Source of the DNA: Arachnia propionica
GTDB taxonomy: Bacteria; Actinomycetota; Actinomycetes; Propionibacteriales; Propionibacteriaceae
Length of the DNA stretch: 64,000 nucleotides
Direction of reading: 5' to 3'
NCBI RefSeq assembly: GCF_003932785.1
Contig: NZ_RQYT01000001.1
Span: 124,001-188,000 of the forward strand
Shown here: positions 17,624 through 25,076 of the stretch, piece after piece
Layout of the letters: each line of letters opens with the position of its first letter
Position numbering within the stretch: the first letter of the stretch is position 1
The notes under the pieces: generated by a model
Databases searched by the model: none
The model's input: the letters and a program-made list of their open reading frames with translations, nothing else
What the model was told of the DNA's origin: nothing
Translations under genes and position numbers: made by a program

Positions 17624-18460
17624 ATGGCCACTGACGACGACCTCCGCGCCGCGGGACTGCGCACCATCCACGGCGACACCGCCGAGGGCGCCGCTGTCGA
17701 CCTGGGCGCGACGGTGCTGTCCTGGCGCCCCCGCGACCACGACGAGGTGCTGTTCGTGAGCCGCGAGGCGCTCGTGGCGCCGGGGGACGAGATCCACGGC
17801 GGCATCCCCGTGTGTGCGCCGTGGTTCGGGCGGGGGCGCGACGGCGTCACCGTGCCCCACATCCACGGCCTGGTCCGGTGGGTGCCGTGGCGGCTCGCCC
17901 GGGCCGACCCCGATCGCCTGGCCTGGGAGCTCCGGCAACACGACGTCGCACACCTCCCCGGGGCCGACGCCTACCCGGACGACCTCACCTACCGGCTGGA
18001 GGCACGGTTCGGCACCACCCTGGAGCTCAGGCTCACTGTGACCTCGCCGACAACCGCGTTCGTCCTGGACGAGGGCCTCCACGTCTATCTCCGGGTGGCG
18101 GACGTGACCGCCTGCCGGGTCGAGGGGCTCGAGGGGGCCACCTTCCGCGACTTCGCGACGGGGGCCGCACCGGACGTCGAACACGAGCCGGTCCGGTTCG
18201 GGCATCCCGTCGATCGGGTGTACCGCCACAGTGGCCCCGCCACCCTCGTCGAGGGAGACCGACGGGTGACCGTCTCGCAGGAGGGCGGCTCAAATGTCGT
18301 GGTGTGGAATCCGGGACCGGGCGTCGACCTCCTCGGATTCGGTGAGGACGAGTGGCGTTCCATGGTCTGCGTCGAGGTGGGCAACGTCCAGCAGGACGCG
18401 GTGGTCGTCGAGGCTGGTCAGCAGCACACCCTGACCCTACGCATCACGGTTGATAGCTGA
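17624..18460 (+). CDS. D-hexose-6-phosphate mutarotase (YeaD-type aldose epimerase)
   Basis: A 278-residue galactose-mutarotase-like beta-sandwich. Family features are LGATVLSWRP near the N-terminus, GGIPVCAPWFG, the conserved HIHGLVRW with the catalytic histidine, and a late catalytic glutamate in MVCVEVGNV. It interconverts alpha and beta anomers of glucose-6-phosphate or related phosphates. Its 3' end overlaps the convergent SorC-type regulator by 17 nt, so it is not obviously part of that regulator's operon. Confidence 0.85.
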   Translation: MATDDDLRAAGLRTIHGDTAEGAAVDLGATVLSWRPRDHDEVLFVSREALVAPGDEIHGGIPVCAPWFGRGRDGVTVPHIHGLVRWVPWRLARADPDRLAWELRQHDVAHLPGADAYPDDLTYRLEARFGTTLELRLTVTSPTTAFVLDEGLHVYLRVADVTACRVEGLEGATFRDFATGAAPDVEHEPVRFGHPVDRVYRHSGPATLVEGDRRVTVSQEGGSNVVVWNPGPGVDLLGFGEDEWRSMVCVEVGNVQQDAVVVEAGQQHTLTLRITVDS

Positions 18461-19415
18461 GCAGGAGCCGGGCCGTGGCCTCGTCCGTGGCCAGCCCCGA
18501 GACCAGGCCGGTGCGGAGGACGGCGTGGAGGGCGGCCACCTTCTCCACCCCCCATGCGACGACGAGGGCAAGCCCCACATCGGCGAGACGTTCGGGTTCC
18601 ATCGCGATGAGGCGGTCACACATCGGGTCCCTGACGTGTTCCCCGGAGGCGTTGAAGTAGTGACCCGCGATGTGCGCGACCGCCCCGCGTCGATGGACCT
18701 CCGCCGCCAGCCGGGGCGTCATCCACGGCTCCAGGATGGCACCGGGGTGGCCGCGGGGCCCGACCACTCCCACACCGGTGAGCGCGATGTCGGAGCGGGC
18801 CGCCAGCTCCAGGGTCGTCAACACGAGTTCCTCCTGCCGCATCGCCTGGGCCATCGCCGCCGAGCCCAGCACGAGCGGCACGGGCATCGGCCGGTAGGTG
18901 CCGCCGAGACGGCGGGCCATCCGTCGGCACAGTTCCGGGGAGTCCACCAGGTCGGCCCCCTCCCGGGCCAGCGACCCCACCATCTGGACGACGCTGCTGT
19001 ACTGCCAGTGCCGCTTGGGCATGGCCTGCACCACTGAGGCGACCGACCTCCCGTTCGAGAGCGCCAGCACGGTGCGGTCGTGCCCGACCTCCGAGATGAG
19101 CGATGCAGCCACCGCGCCCACCGCCTCGCCGGGGCTCCGGTTCTCTGCGGCCGCGACGACGACCGTACCGAGCCCGAACCGCTTGGCGAGCTTCTGCTCC
19201 CAGGCGAACGCCTGCTCCATGGGGTGCTCGATGGTGATCCGCACCATGCCCCGTCGTCGGGCCTCCGTGAGCATCCGGGAGATGGTCGGCCTGGACCAGC
19301 CGAGCCGGTTCGCAATCTCCGCCTGGGACAGTCCCTCCAAGTGGTAGAGACGCGCCACCTCGAGGAGGCGCTGGGCCTGTTCACGACTGGTGGGGCGAGT
19401 CCCGAGGGCGCACAT
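18444..19415 (-). CDS. SorC/DeoR-type sugar-binding transcriptional regulator
   Basis: A 323-residue regulator with an N-terminal helix-turn-helix (LSQAEIANRLGWSRPTISRM) and a C-terminal SIS-like effector domain (about residues 60-323) containing NGRSVASVVQAMP. SorC-family proteins bind phosphorylated sugars. The divergent position beside the six-gene sugar-acid operon makes it the likely controller of that operon. I prefer the ATG at 19415 with GGGAAAG upstream. A GTG at 19439 in the same frame would add eight residues. It overlaps the mutarotase 3' end. Confidence 0.87.
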   Translation of the reverse strand: MCALGTRPTSREQAQRLLEVARLYHLEGLSQAEIANRLGWSRPTISRMLTEARRRGMVRITIEHPMEQAFAWEQKLAKRFGLGTVVVAAAENRSPGEAVGAVAASLISEVGHDRTVLALSNGRSVASVVQAMPKRHWQYSSVVQMVGSLAREGADLVDSPELCRRMARRLGGTYRPMPVPLVLGSAAMAQAMRQEELVLTTLELAARSDIALTGVGVVGPRGHPGAILEPWMTPRLAAEVHRRGAVAHIAGHYFNASGEHVRDPMCDRLIAMEPERLADVGLALVVAWGVEKVAALHAVLRTGLVSGLATDEATARLLLSYQP

Positions 19416-19533
19416 CTGTGCTTCTTTCCCGTTCTCCACGACGTCCGGAGTAACGATGGTTGCTTGTCAAAAGGTAATACTACGTGAGCCCACCAACCAG
19501 GGTGCACAGATGTTCAGAGGCGACCTTGGAACC

Positions 19534-19607: not shown

Positions 19608-20591
19608 ATGAGAGTCCGCACGATCCTGGGCGATGTCGCTCCCGAGACACTCGGCGTCGTCAACGCTCACGACCACCTCATCCGCGTGGGAGCCGGAGAG
19701 GTCTACATCGACCCGGACCATCAACTCGATGACGTGGACAAGGCCGTTGAGGAGGCCACTCACTTCGTCACGGCGTCGAAGAACTGGGCCGCCGCCGGCA
19801 CCGTCATCGACATGTGCCCGGCGAACTGCGGCCGTGATCTCGTCAAGCTCGCCGAGGTCAACCGCCGCGTGCCCGACCTGCACGTGGTGGCGGCCACAGG
19901 CTTCCACCGGGAACACGTGTACCTGGAGACCCAGTCCCACTGGGTGTCCCGCTACACCGTCGACCAGATCGCCGATCTGCTCATCGCGGACATCACCGAG
20001 GGGATCGACGCCAACGACTACTCCGGCCCCATCGTCAACCGCACGGAGTACAGGGCCGGTGTCATCAAGGTCGCGACCGCCTACGGCAAGATCACGAAGT
20101 TCGAACGCAAGTGCATGGAGGCGGCGGCCGCGGCATCGCTCGCGACGGGCGCCCCCATCAACACCCACACCACGTACGGCACCTGCGGGCTCGAACAGGC
20201 CCAGGAACTCATCAAGCTCGGGGTGGCGCCCGAGAAGATCGCGATCGGTCACATCCAGCGCAACGCCGACGTCTACTACCTCAGCCAGATCCTGGACACC
20301 GGCGCCTACCTGGAGATCGACGGCACCTACCGGATCAAGTACCAGCCCGACTCGAACCGCATCATGGAGCTGCGCGAACTCGGCGCGAAGGGCTACGGCC
20401 AGCGCATCCTGCTCGGCACGGACTCCGGGAAGCGCTCCTACCAGAAGGCCTACGGCGCGGTGACGGGGGTCGACTACAACCCCGCCGTCGACGGTCCGCG
20501 GATGATCGCCGAGGGCTTCGACCGGGCCTACGTCGAGGACCTGCTCATGTACAACGGGCAGCGGTTCTTCGCCTTCGTCGAGGACGACTGA
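19608..20591 (+). CDS. Phosphotriesterase-family (cog1735) amidohydrolase, probable sugar-lactone phosphate lactonase
   Basis: A 327-residue TIM-barrel amidohydrolase. All binuclear metal ligands of the family are present: His21 and His23 (NAHDHL), carboxylated Lys154 (GVIKVATAYG), His187 (NTHTTYG), His215 (IGHIQRN) and Asp272 (LLGTDSG). Members of cog1735 from mycoplasmas are known to hydrolyse pentonolactone phosphates, so a lactone-phosphate hydrolase is the best guess. Here it would take the place of the unrelated UlaG lactonase of ascorbate pathways. A GAGGAGG ribosome binding site precedes the ATG. The stop overlaps the next start (TGATG). Confidence 0.82.
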   Translation: MRVRTILGDVAPETLGVVNAHDHLIRVGAGEVYIDPDHQLDDVDKAVEEATHFVTASKNWAAAGTVIDMCPANCGRDLVKLAEVNRRVPDLHVVAATGFHREHVYLETQSHWVSRYTVDQIADLLIADITEGIDANDYSGPIVNRTEYRAGVIKVATAYGKITKFERKCMEAAAAASLATGAPINTHTTYGTCGLEQAQELIKLGVAPEKIAIGHIQRNADVYYLSQILDTGAYLEIDGTYRIKYQPDSNRIMELRELGAKGYGQRILLGTDSGKRSYQKAYGAVTGVDYNPAVDGPRMIAEGFDRAYVEDLLMYNGQRFFAFVEDD

Positions 20592-21241
20592 TGCGTCCCC
20601 GGTTGCAGGTCGCGGTGGACAACCCGGACCTGGTGCACGCCCTGTCGGCCCTGAACCGCGCCGAGCCCGCGGTCGACATCATCGAGTGCGGCACGATCCT
20701 CATCATCTCCGAGGGACTGCGCGCGGTGAGGACGATCCGCTCGCTCTACCCCGACCGGACGATCCTGGCGGATGTCCGCATCGCGGAGGCCGGGTCCCTC
20801 ATCTCCCGCCACTGCTTCGAGGCGGGGGCCGACTGGGTCTCGTGCGTCGCGGGCGCCTCGCTGACCACCATCGACCAGGTGGTGCAGGTGGCGGCCGAGT
20901 TCGGCGGCGAGGTGCAGGTCGAACTCGGGGAGGACTACGACCCGACCCAGGCCCGGGCGTGGCGTGACCTCGGGGTCCAGCACGTCATCGTCAAGCGCTC
21001 CCGCGACCGCGAGGCGGCCGGGGAGCTGAGCTGGGGGCCGTCGGACCTGGCGCGGGTCGGTGAACTGGCGGAGCTGGGGTTCACGGTCACGATCACGGGC
21101 GGGATCGGCGTCGGCGAACTCGACACCTTCGCCGGCTACCCCGTCGGCGTGGTGATCGTCGGCCGCAACATCATGGGGGCCGACGATCCGCTGGCCGCCG
21201 CCCGCGCCTTCAAGGAGGCCATCGCCGAGGTGTGGCCATGA
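20591..21241 (+). CDS. KGPDC-fold protein (3-keto-L-gulonate-6-phosphate decarboxylase homologue) with altered active site
   Basis: A 216-residue single beta/alpha barrel clearly homologous to UlaD/SgbH. Metal and core residues are kept: Asp10, Glu32, Asp61, Glu111 and Arg138. Three catalytic positions differ from E. coli UlaD. The hallmark DxKxxD motif reads DVRIAE, so Lys64 has become Arg63 and Asp67 has become Glu66. UlaD His136 is Lys135 (VKRSRD). The reaction may therefore not be the canonical decarboxylation. It is coupled on both sides (TGATG upstream, ATGA downstream), which argues for a real role in the pathway. Confidence 0.8.
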   Translation: MRPRLQVAVDNPDLVHALSALNRAEPAVDIIECGTILIISEGLRAVRTIRSLYPDRTILADVRIAEAGSLISRHCFEAGADWVSCVAGASLTTIDQVVQVAAEFGGEVQVELGEDYDPTQARAWRDLGVQHVIVKRSRDREAAGELSWGPSDLARVGELAELGFTVTITGGIGVGELDTFAGYPVGVVIVGRNIMGADDPLAAARAFKEAIAEVWP

Positions 21242-22095
21242 GTGACATCCAGCTCGGCATCTACGAGAAGGCCCTCATCGGGATCGAGGACTGGACGCGG
21301 TTCTTCGCCCAGGTCCCCGAGGCGGGGTTCAGCTTCGTCGACCTGTCGATCGATGAGTCACCGGAACGGGCAGCTCGGCTGGACTGGGACCGGGACATCC
21401 GACGCCGGGTCCGGCGGGCCGCCGAGGACACCGGAACCCGGATCGGGGGGCTGTGCCTCAGCCTCCACCGGAGGGTGATGCCGGGATCCAGGGATCCGGA
21501 GATCCGACGCCAGGCAGCCGAGGTGTACCGCAAGGGCATCCGCCTGGCCGCCGACCTCGGGGTCAGCGTCCTCCAGGTCGCCGGGTACTACGCCCACTAC
21601 GAGGAACCCGACGAGGGGGCGCGGCAGCGCTGGATCGACTCCCTCATGGCGGCGCTGCCCCAGGCGGCCCACGAGGGGGTCATCCTCGCCGTCGAGAACG
21701 TCGACGGCACCGACATCACCTCGGTGCCCGACGTGATGGACATCGTCGACCTGGCGCGATCCCCATGGCTCCAGTGCTACCCCGACGTCGGCAACATCGC
21801 CGGTCACGGAGGAAGCTCGGGGCCCGAACTGGCGGCCTGCGAGGGTCATCTGGTGGCGCTCCACGTCAAGGACGTGCTGCCGGGTCAACCCCGTCGGGTG
21901 CCGTTCGGCACCGGCATCGCGGACTTCGACCAGGCCTTCGCGGAACTCCACCGCCAGGAGTGGTCCGGTCGCGTGATGTTGGAGATGTGGCACGACGATG
22001 CCCCGGATTCCCTGGACCGGTGCCGCGAGGCACGGCGATTCATCGAGGAGAAGGCGTCCAACGCAGGACTGAGGATCATCAAGGAGGAGCCATGA
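21238..22095 (+). CDS. UlaE/SgbU-type L-xylulose-5-phosphate 3-epimerase
   Basis: A 285-residue AP-endonuclease-like TIM barrel. The metal ligands expected for this epimerase family appear in order in AVENVDGTD (Glu), YPDVGN (Asp), ALHVKD (His) and VMLEMW (Glu). In the L-ascorbate and L-lyxose routes it converts L-xylulose-5-phosphate to L-ribulose-5-phosphate. The start at 21238 overlaps the preceding stop (ATGA). A GTG at 21232 is in frame but less likely. Substrate identity depends on what the altered KGPDC-fold protein makes. Confidence 0.82.
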   Translation: MSDIQLGIYEKALIGIEDWTRFFAQVPEAGFSFVDLSIDESPERAARLDWDRDIRRRVRRAAEDTGTRIGGLCLSLHRRVMPGSRDPEIRRQAAEVYRKGIRLAADLGVSVLQVAGYYAHYEEPDEGARQRWIDSLMAALPQAAHEGVILAVENVDGTDITSVPDVMDIVDLARSPWLQCYPDVGNIAGHGGSSGPELAACEGHLVALHVKDVLPGQPRRVPFGTGIADFDQAFAELHRQEWSGRVMLEMWHDDAPDSLDRCREARRFIEEKASNAGLRIIKEEP

Positions 22096-22763
22096 TGTTG
22101 CAGGAACTCCGCGAGCAGGTCTGGAAGGGCAACCTGGCCCTCCCCGAGAACGGCCTGGTCGCCTGGACCGGCGGGAACCTGTCCGCCATCACCGAGGACC
22201 GGGACCTCATCGTCATCAAGCCCTCGGGCATGCTCTACCCGGAGATGCGCCCCGAGGACATGGTCGTCGTCGACATGACGGGACGGATCGTCGAGGGGGA
22301 CCACGGCCCCTCGTCGGACACCGCGTCACACCTTGCGATCTACGCCGGGCGCGAGGACGTCGGCTCCGTGGTGCACACCCACTCCCGCTACGCGACCGCG
22401 TTCGCGGCCGTGGGGAAACCCATTCCCTGTGTCCTCACGGCCATCGCCGACGAGTTCGGGGGCCCTGTCCCCTGCGGCGGCTACGCCCCCATCGGGTCGG
22501 ATGCCATCGGCAGAACCCTGTTGGCGGCCATCGGGGACTCCCCTGCCGTACTCATGAGGCAACACGGGGTCTTCACCATCGGACCAACCATCACCAAGGC
22601 ACTGCAGGCCGCCGTCATGGTGGAGGATGTGGCCCGAACCGTTTTCGCTGCGATGCAGATCGGCCGGGTCGAAGAACTCCCGGCCGAGGAGATCAAGGCG
22701 AACCATGAGCGGTACACCCATCGATACGGAACCATCCATGCTTCCACCGGAGTGAGCAGGTGA
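22092..22763 (+). CDS. L-ribulose-5-phosphate 4-epimerase (AraD/UlaF/SgbE class II aldolase family)
   Basis: A 223-residue class II aldolase-fold enzyme making D-xylulose-5-phosphate. Substrate-phosphate motifs are WTGGNLSA and PSSDTASH. Zinc histidines lie in VHTHSR and the later QHGVF. The sequence is close to UlaF/SgbE but has a shortened central loop. Two adjacent in-frame ATGs (22092 and 22095) fall in the ATGA overlap with the upstream gene, behind AAGGAGGAG. The product would enter the pentose phosphate pathway, where the window also encodes transketolase. Confidence 0.85.
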   Translation: MMLQELREQVWKGNLALPENGLVAWTGGNLSAITEDRDLIVIKPSGMLYPEMRPEDMVVVDMTGRIVEGDHGPSSDTASHLAIYAGREDVGSVVHTHSRYATAFAAVGKPIPCVLTAIADEFGGPVPCGGYAPIGSDAIGRTLLAAIGDSPAVLMRQHGVFTIGPTITKALQAAVMVEDVARTVFAAMQIGRVEELPAEEIKANHERYTHRYGTIHASTGVSR

Positions 22764-23713
22764 CAACAATGTTTGATTTGACCACCATCGGCGAGGGCCA
22801 GATCCGTCTGACGGTCCCTCAGGGCGAACGACTGTCCAACACGAGACAGCTCCGGATGACCGCCGCCTGTTCCGAGGCGAACGTCTCCGGGCTGCTCTCC
22901 CAACTCGGGCGCCGGACTTCCTGGTGCTCGGTCATGCCCGAATCCGACCTGGCGGAACGCTGCCTGTGCGAGTTCCGGGCCGTCGGCGTCGACATGAGCA
23001 ACATGATCCGGGTGCCGGAGGGTCGCGTGGCCCTCTACTTCATGGAACCCGGCGAGCCGCCCATGCCATCCCGGGTCACCTACGACCGCCTCAACACGGC
23101 GTTCCGGGACATCAGCGTCGACGACGTCAACTGGGAGTCGATGCTCAACACGCGGCTGGCCTTCGTCACGGGCATCACCACCGCCCTGACCGAGAACACC
23201 GCCCGGGTCATCACCCATTTCGTCGACGCCGCACACGAACGCGGCATCGAGGTGGCCCTCGACGTCAACTACCGCAGCCTGCTGTGGGACCCCGACCAGG
23301 CGGATCGAATCCTGAGTCGGATCGCCTCGAAGTGCCGAATCATCTTCTGCTCCCGCAAGGACGCCGGGGTCCTGTGGGGGCTGGACGGAGCCCGGGCCGA
23401 GGTGTCCCGGCAGCTGAGGGAACGGTTCGGCGCCGAGCACGTCGTCTCCACGGACGGACACAACGGGGTCTACTACGCGGGTCCGAACGGCATCGAGGAC
23501 CGCCCCGTCGAACTCGTCCCGGTCATCGACCGGCCGGGGGCGGGCGACTCCTTCGTCGCCGCGACGCTCCACGGCCACCTCGGCGGCGACATCGTCAAGG
23601 GCATCGACTACGGGCTGCGTGTCTCCAAGTACGCCCTGACCCACCACGGCGATCTCACGCTCATCACGCCCTCGGAGCTCGCCATCCCCACGACCACCGA
23701 CATCATTCGTTGA
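22760..23713 (+). CDS. PfkB-family carbohydrate kinase
   Basis: A 317-residue ribokinase-fold sugar kinase with the PfkB signature 2 motif DRPGAGDSFVAATLHG (catalytic Asp in GAGDSF) at about residues 254-269 and a KDG-kinase-like body. In a cluster lacking any PTS gene it probably phosphorylates the imported sugar acid or lactone, giving the phosphate group needed by the other enzymes. It starts at GTG 22760, overlapping the previous stop (GTGA). An ATG at 22769 is possible. It is unusual for ascorbate-type clusters, which normally rely on PTS phosphorylation. Confidence 0.83.
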   Translation: MTTMFDLTTIGEGQIRLTVPQGERLSNTRQLRMTAACSEANVSGLLSQLGRRTSWCSVMPESDLAERCLCEFRAVGVDMSNMIRVPEGRVALYFMEPGEPPMPSRVTYDRLNTAFRDISVDDVNWESMLNTRLAFVTGITTALTENTARVITHFVDAAHERGIEVALDVNYRSLLWDPDQADRILSRIASKCRIIFCSRKDAGVLWGLDGARAEVSRQLRERFGAEHVVSTDGHNGVYYAGPNGIEDRPVELVPVIDRPGAGDSFVAATLHGHLGGDIVKGIDYGLRVSKYALTHHGDLTLITPSELAIPTTTDIIR

Positions 23714-23723
23714 GCGAGCCATC

Positions 23724-25076
23724 ATGACCACAACACCTTCCGCCCGCCCGACGGCGAGCGAACTCATCGATTCCCGCCCACTCACGGGCAATCAGAAGAA
23801 CCTCATCGCCCTGGTCATCGTCGCGAACATCGCTGAGTTCTTCGACATGTTCCTCATCGGCTTCGTCGTGTCGTTGCTGACGAAACCCTGGAACCTCACC
23901 GGGTTCGAGGCCGCCTGGATCCTCGGGGCATCCGGCGCGGGCACCGTGCTCGGCGCCATCCTGTGGGGCGCGCTCGCGGACCGGATCGGGCGCCGACGTT
24001 CCTTCTTCTGGTGCGTCGTCCTGTTCACCGTCTTCACGGCCCTCACCCTCCTCACCCCCGAGCGGGGCTGGATCATGCTGGCGGTCCTCAGGGTCATCGT
24101 CGGTGCCGGCGTCGGCGGCCTCAACATCACCTCCATCCCCTACGTCCAGGAGTTCGTCCCGGCGAAGCGCCGTGGCCTGTTGGCCGGCCTGGCGTCGGTG
24201 TTCATCCCGATCGGGCTGCTGCTCGGCGCCCAGGCCCAGCTGTGGTTGGGCGAACCGATCGGTTGGCGTGGCCTCATCGCGCTGGGTGCCCTGCCCATCT
24301 TCCTGCTGCTGTGGCTGCGCATGGTTCCCGAGTCACCACGCTTCCTGCAGTCCCGGGGGCGGGATGACGAGGCCCGGGCCGCCTACGCCTGGGCGCTGGA
24401 GATGCCCGTCGACGAGGTCGGTGACCTGCCCGACGTGGAGGAGACGAAGAAGTCCTCGCTCGGGGTCATCTTCTCCCGTTACCCGAAGGAACTCATCATC
24501 ATCACGGTGGGATCGTTCAGCTTCATCCTGGGCTCCTTCACCGTCCAGTCGTGGGGGCAGACCCTCCTCAAGGACGGCTTCGGGTTCTCCGCCGCGATGG
24601 TGGGCGGCCTGTTCACCATCGTCTCGCTGGCCGATGTGGCGGGTCGGCTGGGGTCCGCCTGGCTGGCCGACCGGATCGGGCGACGCATGGTGATGCTCCT
24701 GTTCGGGCTCCTGGGAGCCGTGGGCTGCGTCATCGCGGCGACGACGGACAACGCCTGGGTGTTCTTCATCGGCATCGTCGTCACGATGACCTTCGGCGAC
24801 GGCGCCTTCGGCATCCTCAACGCTTTCGGCGCGGAGCAGTTCCCGAACGAGGCCCGCTCCACCGGCCTCGGCCTCGGCTACGGGATCGGCGCCACGGCGA
24901 AGATCATCGGCCCCTTCCTCATGGGTTGGCTCATCGGCGGGGACGCCATCAAGCAGAACGTGACCCGCGATGCGGTCCCGCCCGCGTTCCTGCTCTTCGC
25001 AGCCCTCCTGGTGGTCGGCGGCATCACCTACCTCTTCGCCAAGGAGACGCGCAACGTCTCGCTGGAGAAGATCTGA
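23724..25076 (+). CDS. MFS transporter, sugar or organic acid uptake
   Basis: A 450-residue permease with 12 predicted transmembrane segments. The duplicated motif A appears as GALADRIGRRRSFF and AWLADRIGRRMVML, and PESPRFLQSRGR follows TM6, a pattern of the sugar porter and aromatic/organic acid symporters. As the last gene of the coupled operon and the only transporter in it, it is the presumed importer of the unphosphorylated substrate. A strong terminator follows 10 nt later. Confidence 0.85.
   Translation: MTTTPSARPTASELIDSRPLTGNQKNLIALVIVANIAEFFDMFLIGFVVSLLTKPWNLTGFEAAWILGASGAGTVLGAILWGALADRIGRRRSFFWCVVLFTVFTALTLLTPERGWIMLAVLRVIVGAGVGGLNITSIPYVQEFVPAKRRGLLAGLASVFIPIGLLLGAQAQLWLGEPIGWRGLIALGALPIFLLLWLRMVPESPRFLQSRGRDDEARAAYAWALEMPVDEVGDLPDVEETKKSSLGVIFSRYPKELIIITVGSFSFILGSFTVQSWGQTLLKDGFGFSAAMVGGLFTIVSLADVAGRLGSAWLADRIGRRMVMLLFGLLGAVGCVIAATTDNAWVFFIGIVVTMTFGDGAFGILNAFGAEQFPNEARSTGLGLGYGIGATAKIIGPFLMGWLIGGDAIKQNVTRDAVPPAFLLFAALLVVGGITYLFAKETRNVSLEKI

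Follow-up and report, generated by a model that had tools for sequence, protein, structure and literature searches.

An Arg/Glu sister clade of probable 3-keto-L-gulonate 6-phosphate decarboxylases in a predicted PTS-free L-ascorbate operon of Arachnia propionica

The window analysed here is a stretch of 64,000 nucleotides from Arachnia propionica (contig NZ_RQYT01000001.1, positions 124,001 to 188,000). It carries six overlapping or closely spaced genes, which diverge from a gene for a SorC-type regulator and encode, in this order, a PTE-family lactonase, a variant of 3-keto-L-gulonate 6-phosphate decarboxylase (KGPDC), a UlaE-type epimerase, a UlaF/AraD-type epimerase, a PfkB-family kinase and a transporter of the major facilitator superfamily (MFS) (Table 1). 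The KGPDC variant, in which the active-site motif DxKxxD is replaced by DxRxxE, is the subject of this analysis.

The variant protein (216 aa) aligns almost without gaps to Escherichia coli UlaD, with 46% identity. Superposition of its predicted model on crystal structures of UlaD gives a deviation of 1.2-1.3 A, and UlaD structures, mutant as well as wild-type, are the model's top structural matches; an E112D/R139V/T169A design is present among the solved UlaD mutants. Translation and alignment place D61, R63, E66, E111, K135 and R138 in the target, with three swaps relative to UlaD: Lys64 to Arg, Asp67 to Glu and His136 to Lys. D61 and R63 both lie on strand 57-64 of the modelled structure. 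The metal residues E32 and D61 are kept and are invariant across the alignment (A2), and G191-R192 is shared with UlaD, as are E111, R138 and T169, the three residues that discriminate KGPDC from 3-hexulose-6-phosphate synthase (HPS). The replaced lysine has long been regarded as the hallmark of the orotidine 5'-monophosphate (OMP) decarboxylase suprafamily. The first-pass annotation of this DNA had described the DxRxxE motif with a lysine at 135 and the loss of the suprafamily lysine, in a protein that retains its fold, its metal ligands and its operon coupling and whose gene is not decayed. The alignment to UlaD confirms these changes, R63 standing in the place of the lysine, and the conservation described below extends them well beyond a single gene. 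Catalytic residues of the structures 1xbv and 3exr are listed in PMC5980557.

The first relatives came from a scan of genome contigs (80 kept of 104), and all 80 carry DxRxxE. This figure proves little, because one of the search patterns, ADVRIAEA, contained the motif; pattern-free profile searches (E limit 1e-35) were therefore run in the host genus (39 genomes), its phylum (296) and the phyla of five further centre genomes picked for carrying the variant (301, 111, 198, 398 and 199). Among the intact hits that have Glu111, 19 carry DxRxxE and 24 DxKxxD; the 19 include the six centre genomes (the host genome and the five picked ones), and without these the comparison is 13 versus 24. Apart from the centres, only the host genus and phylum, Chloroflexota and Deinococcota yielded the variant, and the Acidobacteriota, Spirochaetota and Pseudomonadota-labelled searches returned it in the centre genome only. 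Classical enzymes were found by the profile searches in Spirochaetota and Pseudomonadota; the phylum of some hits was taken from the centre genome used.

After deduplication, all sources together gave 87 variant, 29 classical KGPDC and 15 HPS-like rows, some genes being counted twice among the last. A row of Mesomycoplasma hyorhinis, which needs genetic code 4, was left out of the counts, and one short protein (L059, 175 aa) was dropped from the trees. Two further rows (L087 and L090), both from genome G032 of the host's genus, were dropped as frame-broken fragments; there the KGPDC match is split into two overlapping pieces with stops, through damage or an assembly error. The 87 distinct variant sequences belong mostly to Actinomycetota, Chloroflexota and Deinococcota, and the named rows add one metagenome-assembled genome (MAG) each from Acidobacteriota, Spirochaetota and a Pseudomonadota-labelled bin (L056).

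R63 and E66 are invariant in all 87 variant rows. Each of the 116 KGPDC rows has either D-R-E or D-K-D, and a single change was seen in none (0/116). Glu111 is kept throughout (116/116; variant 87/87) and Arg138 nearly so (115/116; variant 86/87), while Thr169 is kept in 105 of the 116, the variant having Thr in 76 of 87 and Ala in the remaining 11. The HPS-like rows have Asp111 and Ala169, with DxKxxD in all 15. Position 135 is His in every classical row (29/29) and divided in the variant between Lys (45) and His (42). Other differences from the classical enzymes accompany the Arg/Glu pair: position 134 is Tyr in 29/29 classical rows and Val, Ala, Ile, Thr or Phe in the variant, position 113 is Tyr, Thr or Phe in the former and mostly Ala, Gly, Ser or Ile in the latter, and one residue is inserted near 146 in the variant. 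Positions 71, 84, 86, 97, 132, 146 and 167 also separate the groups.

In a tree of 130 rows with the trait columns included, the variant forms one clade with support of 99/92 (bootstrap not settled). Trait-free trees were built without columns 63, 66 and 135 and without seven long or duplicate HPS-like rows. A quick tree of this kind places one protein, L187, outside the variant clade; a tree constrained to one clade, likewise with the trait columns omitted, had the higher likelihood and is not rejected (approximately unbiased test, 0.90), and with L187 removed the remaining variants form one clade (SH-aLRT 99). L187, from the Chloroflexota search, is a long, deep branch and possibly an early form. 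Its locus is the only one with a variant KGPDC and a phosphotransferase system (PTS) component, which is UlaA-like, and it has both UlaG and the PTE lactonase.

The neighbouring genes of the window point to pentulose phosphate metabolism of the Ula type (Table 1). The sole solved relative of the UlaE-type protein at E 1e-10 is E. coli UlaE; for its gene an ATG at 21238, overlapping the KGPDC stop, is the likelier start. The best solved relative of the lactonase is 3msr/3ovg. Its residues K154, H187, H215 and D272 are present in 60/60 rows and H21/H23 in 58/60, with two gaps, and we assign to these six the role of ligands at a binuclear metal centre, as in the PTE family; the figures are column counts, a regular-expression test having been too strict (22/73). 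The nearest solved relatives of the kinase are 2-keto-3-deoxygluconate (KDG) kinases and other PfkB kinases. The genes seen in the window operon do not include a dehydrogenase; what is imported would thus be expected to be a lactone that is already as oxidised as ascorbate. The host genome has no match (E 0.001) to PF03611 (EIIC-GAT) or to NF008688 (UlaG), an E. coli control being positive for both.

Table 1. Features of the KGPDC-variant operon, in positions of the window
Feature	Position	Strand	Basis or remark
SorC-type regulator (helix-turn-helix and sugar-binding domain)	18444..19439	-	PF04198 Sugar-bind 177 bits
PTE-family lactonase, predicted L-ascorbate-6-phosphate lactonase in UlaG's stead	19608..20591	+	Pfam PTE 151.6 bits
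KGPDC-variant gene	20591..21241	+	start codon shares one base with the lactonase stop
D61-x-R63-x-x-E66 motif, codons 61 to 66	20771..20788	+	translation, alignment, model
K135 to R138, codons 135 to 138	20993..21004	+	Lys at the UlaD His136 site, conserved Arg at UlaD Arg139
UlaE-type L-xylulose/L-ribulose-5-phosphate 3-epimerase	21232..22095	+	NF009688 316.3 bits (cut-off 317); NF009689 251.3 bits (cut-off 200)
UlaF/AraD-type L-ribulose-5-phosphate 4-epimerase	22095..22763	+	NF005123 308.9 bits, above cut-off 251; aligned to E. coli UlaF
PfkB-family kinase, predicted ATP-dependent L-ascorbate 6-kinase	22760..23713	+	Pfam PfkB 91 bits; GAGD 260-263
MFS transporter (acid/H+ symporter type), predicted L-ascorbate uptake	23724..25076	+	PF07690, PF00083; TIGR00895 209.8 bits, below cut-off 418.55

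The gene set of the window recurs throughout Actinomycetota, partly reordered. Its wider distribution was counted as tblastn hits within each locus, for rows that span 5 kb of DNA or more; such hits do not imply co-transcription, and the rows are phylogenetically related. A PfkB hit is present at 80 of 84 variant loci versus 0 of 29 classical ones, the variant rows without it being L009, L010, L074 and L187 (loci of 6.6-7.5 kb). UlaE was hit at 79 of the 84 variant loci, SorC at 69 and UlaF at 67; a PTS component was found at one, that of L187, and an FGGY kinase (LyxK) also in four rows. The 29 classical rows have a PTS in 22 cases, UlaG in 20 and LyxK in seven.

The two lactonase types nearly exclude each other. 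At the 84 variant loci the PTE type alone was found 61 times, UlaG alone 15 times, both once and neither seven times; the seven loci with neither (L070, L071, L072, L078, L079, L181 and L185) end at a contig edge on the UlaG side. Actinomycetota have the PTE-family lactonase in place of UlaG. In Chloroflexota, Deinococcota and the Spirochaetota MAG the variant is accompanied by PfkB, an ABC transporter of the sugar type and UlaG, in most cases by UlaE and frequently by UlaF; in the Acidobacteriota MAG UlaG occurs with an MFS gene rather than an ABC transporter. Against the L-ascorbate 6-phosphate lactonase cut-off of 306, the UlaG of L062 reaches 644.8 bits; the other UlaG calls are tblastn hits. 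The first-pass annotation had raised the question whether the variant always co-occurs with a PTE-family lactonase. It does not, as 22 of the 84 variant loci have no PTE hit (seven of them cut by contig ends), and neither is this lactonase exclusive to the variant, because in M. hyorhinis a PTE-type lactonase accompanies a canonical DxKxxD enzyme.

Some loci differ from this pattern. L056, one of the 15 loci with UlaG alone, comes from a MAG that bears the label Acetobacteraceae. Its variant KGPDC falls with Actinomyces in the tree and is adjoined by PfkB, MFS and UlaG genes, with no PTE; the contig edge carries a second, partial KGPDC with UlaE and UlaF. Either this label is questionable or gene transfer has occurred. 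Some Chloroflexota variant operons also contain a gene of the MtaA/URO-D family (L066:8193-10011) and a HAD phosphatase (L066, and L071:4734-5438). Plasmids of Ligilactobacillus salivarius (L191) and Lacticaseibacillus paracasei (L192) combine a classical KGPDC with gnd, a fructose-type PTS and UlaE/UlaF types, with no annotated UlaG; their gnd, for an NAD-dependent 6-phosphogluconate dehydrogenase, looks like a different feed into KGPDC, by oxidation of a phospho-aldonate.

Three known systems resemble the window operon. The E. coli ula regulon likewise clusters a lactonase, a decarboxylase, a 3-epimerase and a 4-epimerase, but it takes up its substrate through the PTS UlaABC, whereas variant loci have an MFS transporter (usually an ABC transporter outside Actinomycetota) and a PfkB kinase; UlaG and UlaR of E. 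coli correspond to a PTE-family lactonase and a SorC-type regulator in the window. The E. coli yia-sgb system for 2,3-diketo-L-gulonate shares a kinase, a KGPDC, two epimerases and the absence of a PTS, but has LyxK and the reductase YiaK, whereas the window operon has a PfkB kinase, a lactonase and no reductase. The mycoplasma ascorbate operon (Ms0025/Mag6390 type) is similar in that a PTE-family lactonase adjoins KGPDC, UlaE and UlaF; in M. hyorhinis such a lactonase lies inside an ascorbate PTS operon with a DxKxxD KGPDC. It differs in its PTS uptake, its canonical decarboxylase and the lack of a PfkB kinase in the annotated stretch. Replacement of UlaG by a PTE-type lactonase in mycoplasmas has been proposed in PMC4866288 and PMC11092275.

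Based on these comparisons of sequence and gene order, we consider it quite probable that the target is a working 3-keto-L-gulonate 6-phosphate decarboxylase, belonging to an Arg/Glu sister clade and acting in a non-PTS L-ascorbate pathway. The operon partners are observed; from them we infer the substrate and the order of the steps. The MFS protein would bring in ascorbate, which the PfkB kinase would phosphorylate at O6 using ATP, and the PTE-family lactonase would open the ring of ascorbate 6-phosphate. UlaE and UlaF depend on prior conversion of the UlaG-type product, 3-keto-L-gulonate 6-phosphate, to L-xylulose 5-phosphate; the target enzyme would perform this step, with release of CO2, and the two epimerases would then yield D-xylulose 5-phosphate.

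The activity and the catalytic roles may be read from the fold, the register and the residue conservation across the clade. Mg2+ on E32 and D61, together with the guanidinium of R63, would stabilise the enediolate left after the loss of CO2. E66 would hold R63; Arg preserves the positive charge and Glu its partner. E111, R138 and residue 135 (Lys in the target, His in roughly half of the clade) might place water and supply the proton, by analogy with the UlaD mechanism. About half of the clade lacks Lys at both 63 and 135, hence a shared chemistry would need none there.

Several points weigh against this assignment. The target scores 231.4 bits against the NCBIfam KGPDC family, whose curated cut-off is 250, although several variant relatives pass it (e.g. 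L132 with 266.2 and L153 with 277.3); because this cut-off is narrowly missed and DxRxxE and K135 replace DxKxxD and His136, we place the protein in a sister clade of variants rather than among the canonical enzymes. Arginine is a poor acid, and any step that uses Lys64 of UlaD as an acid would fail if unchanged. The lactonase reaches 244 bits against the phospho-furanose lactonase family NF045706, far below its cut-off of 630, and characterised mycoplasma PTE-type lactonases are reported in PMC10971088 to act on pentono-lactone 5-phosphates. A limited literature search found no report of an ascorbate kinase. UlaE was not hit at five of the 84 variant loci and UlaF not at 17, and the association of variant and kinase may reflect a single evolutionary event.

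The changes at positions 113, 134 and 146 also leave room for a different substrate, and the same chemistry might be performed on another 3-keto-aldonate 6-phosphate, for instance one that originates from an ascorbate stereoisomer or some other hexonolactone; remodelling of the pocket would then have accompanied the change to R63/E66. Besides the pocket, this explanation is favoured by the likeness of the kinase to KDG kinases, by the acid-type transporter and by the distance of the PTE lactonase from characterised ones. However, the UlaE and UlaF partners indicate L-xylulose 5-phosphate as the product, D-erythorbate would yield D-ribulose 5-phosphate and should need neither epimerase, and UlaG serves as the lactonase at the 15 variant loci that have it in place of the PTE type. 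We thus regard another substrate as unlikely, though with some claim to attention.

The first-pass annotation had suggested that the catalytic lysine moved to a new site, or that the enzyme performs an isomerisation, an aldol reaction or a different decarboxylation. The defining lysine is indeed absent, and K135, one of only two lysines in the target and present in 45 of the 87 variants, seems at first sight a candidate for its new position. Nevertheless, the other 42 have His135 with the same operon type. The careful tree requires four switches between Lys and His and the quick trait-free tree five; the latter rejects a single origin of K135 (p 0.0008). As the two residues alternate within one operon type, K135 is no marker of new chemistry. 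Nor is a plausible stand-in offered by any other conserved lysine: Lys/Arg conservation in the clade exceeds 80% at columns 47, 50, 56, 63, 136, 138 and 192, of which only column 56 is mainly Lys, and there the target has Arg and UlaD also has Lys. The retained E111, R138 and T169, neighbours that fit a route from 3-keto-L-gulonate 6-phosphate to D-xylulose 5-phosphate, and UlaG at non-actinobacterial loci further speak against a new reaction. A relocated lysine with a new reaction is therefore highly improbable; the observation on the residues was right, and more general than first described, but its radical interpretation is unsupported.

An HPS-like aldolase that fixes or releases formaldehyde is scarcely credible: DxRxxE, Glu111 and Thr169 of the target differ from DxKxxD, Asp111 and Ala169 of the HPS-like rows, no hexuloisomerase was seen in the window operon, and identity as an HPS was ruled out on E111 and T169. 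A catalytically dead or decaying paralogue, to which the joint change of two textbook catalytic residues (and of a third one in roughly half of the variant sequences) might point, can be given almost no credence, as the motif is invariant in 87/87 sequences over several phyla and the gene, set in a tight operon of overlapping genes, is the only KGPDC match in the host genome (no second one at E 0.01).

Taken beyond the single protein, our favoured reading of a decarboxylase with an Arg/Glu pair leads to a broader proposal, towards which we lean with more reserve. A multi-phylum clade may perform the enediolate chemistry of the OMP decarboxylase suprafamily without the lysine, relying on an Arg-Glu pair and on a proton relay in which His and Lys are interchangeable. 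The origin or spread of this clade would have gone together with a vitamin C pathway that is free of the PTS and includes an undescribed PfkB-family L-ascorbate 6-kinase and, in Actinomycetota, a PTE-family ascorbate-6-phosphate lactonase.

What is new here, as far as can be judged from sequences, is the clade-wide exchange of Lys/Asp for Arg/Glu and the predicted kinase-dependent, PTS-free ascorbate pathway. If true, the hallmark lysine of the OMP decarboxylase suprafamily would have been swapped in nature, always paired with its aspartate among the 116 KGPDC rows, and the role of this lysine could therefore be tested through comparison of natural enzymes. PTS-free catabolism of vitamin C would then be predicted in Bifidobacterium, Cutibacterium, Actinomyces and Chloroflexota.
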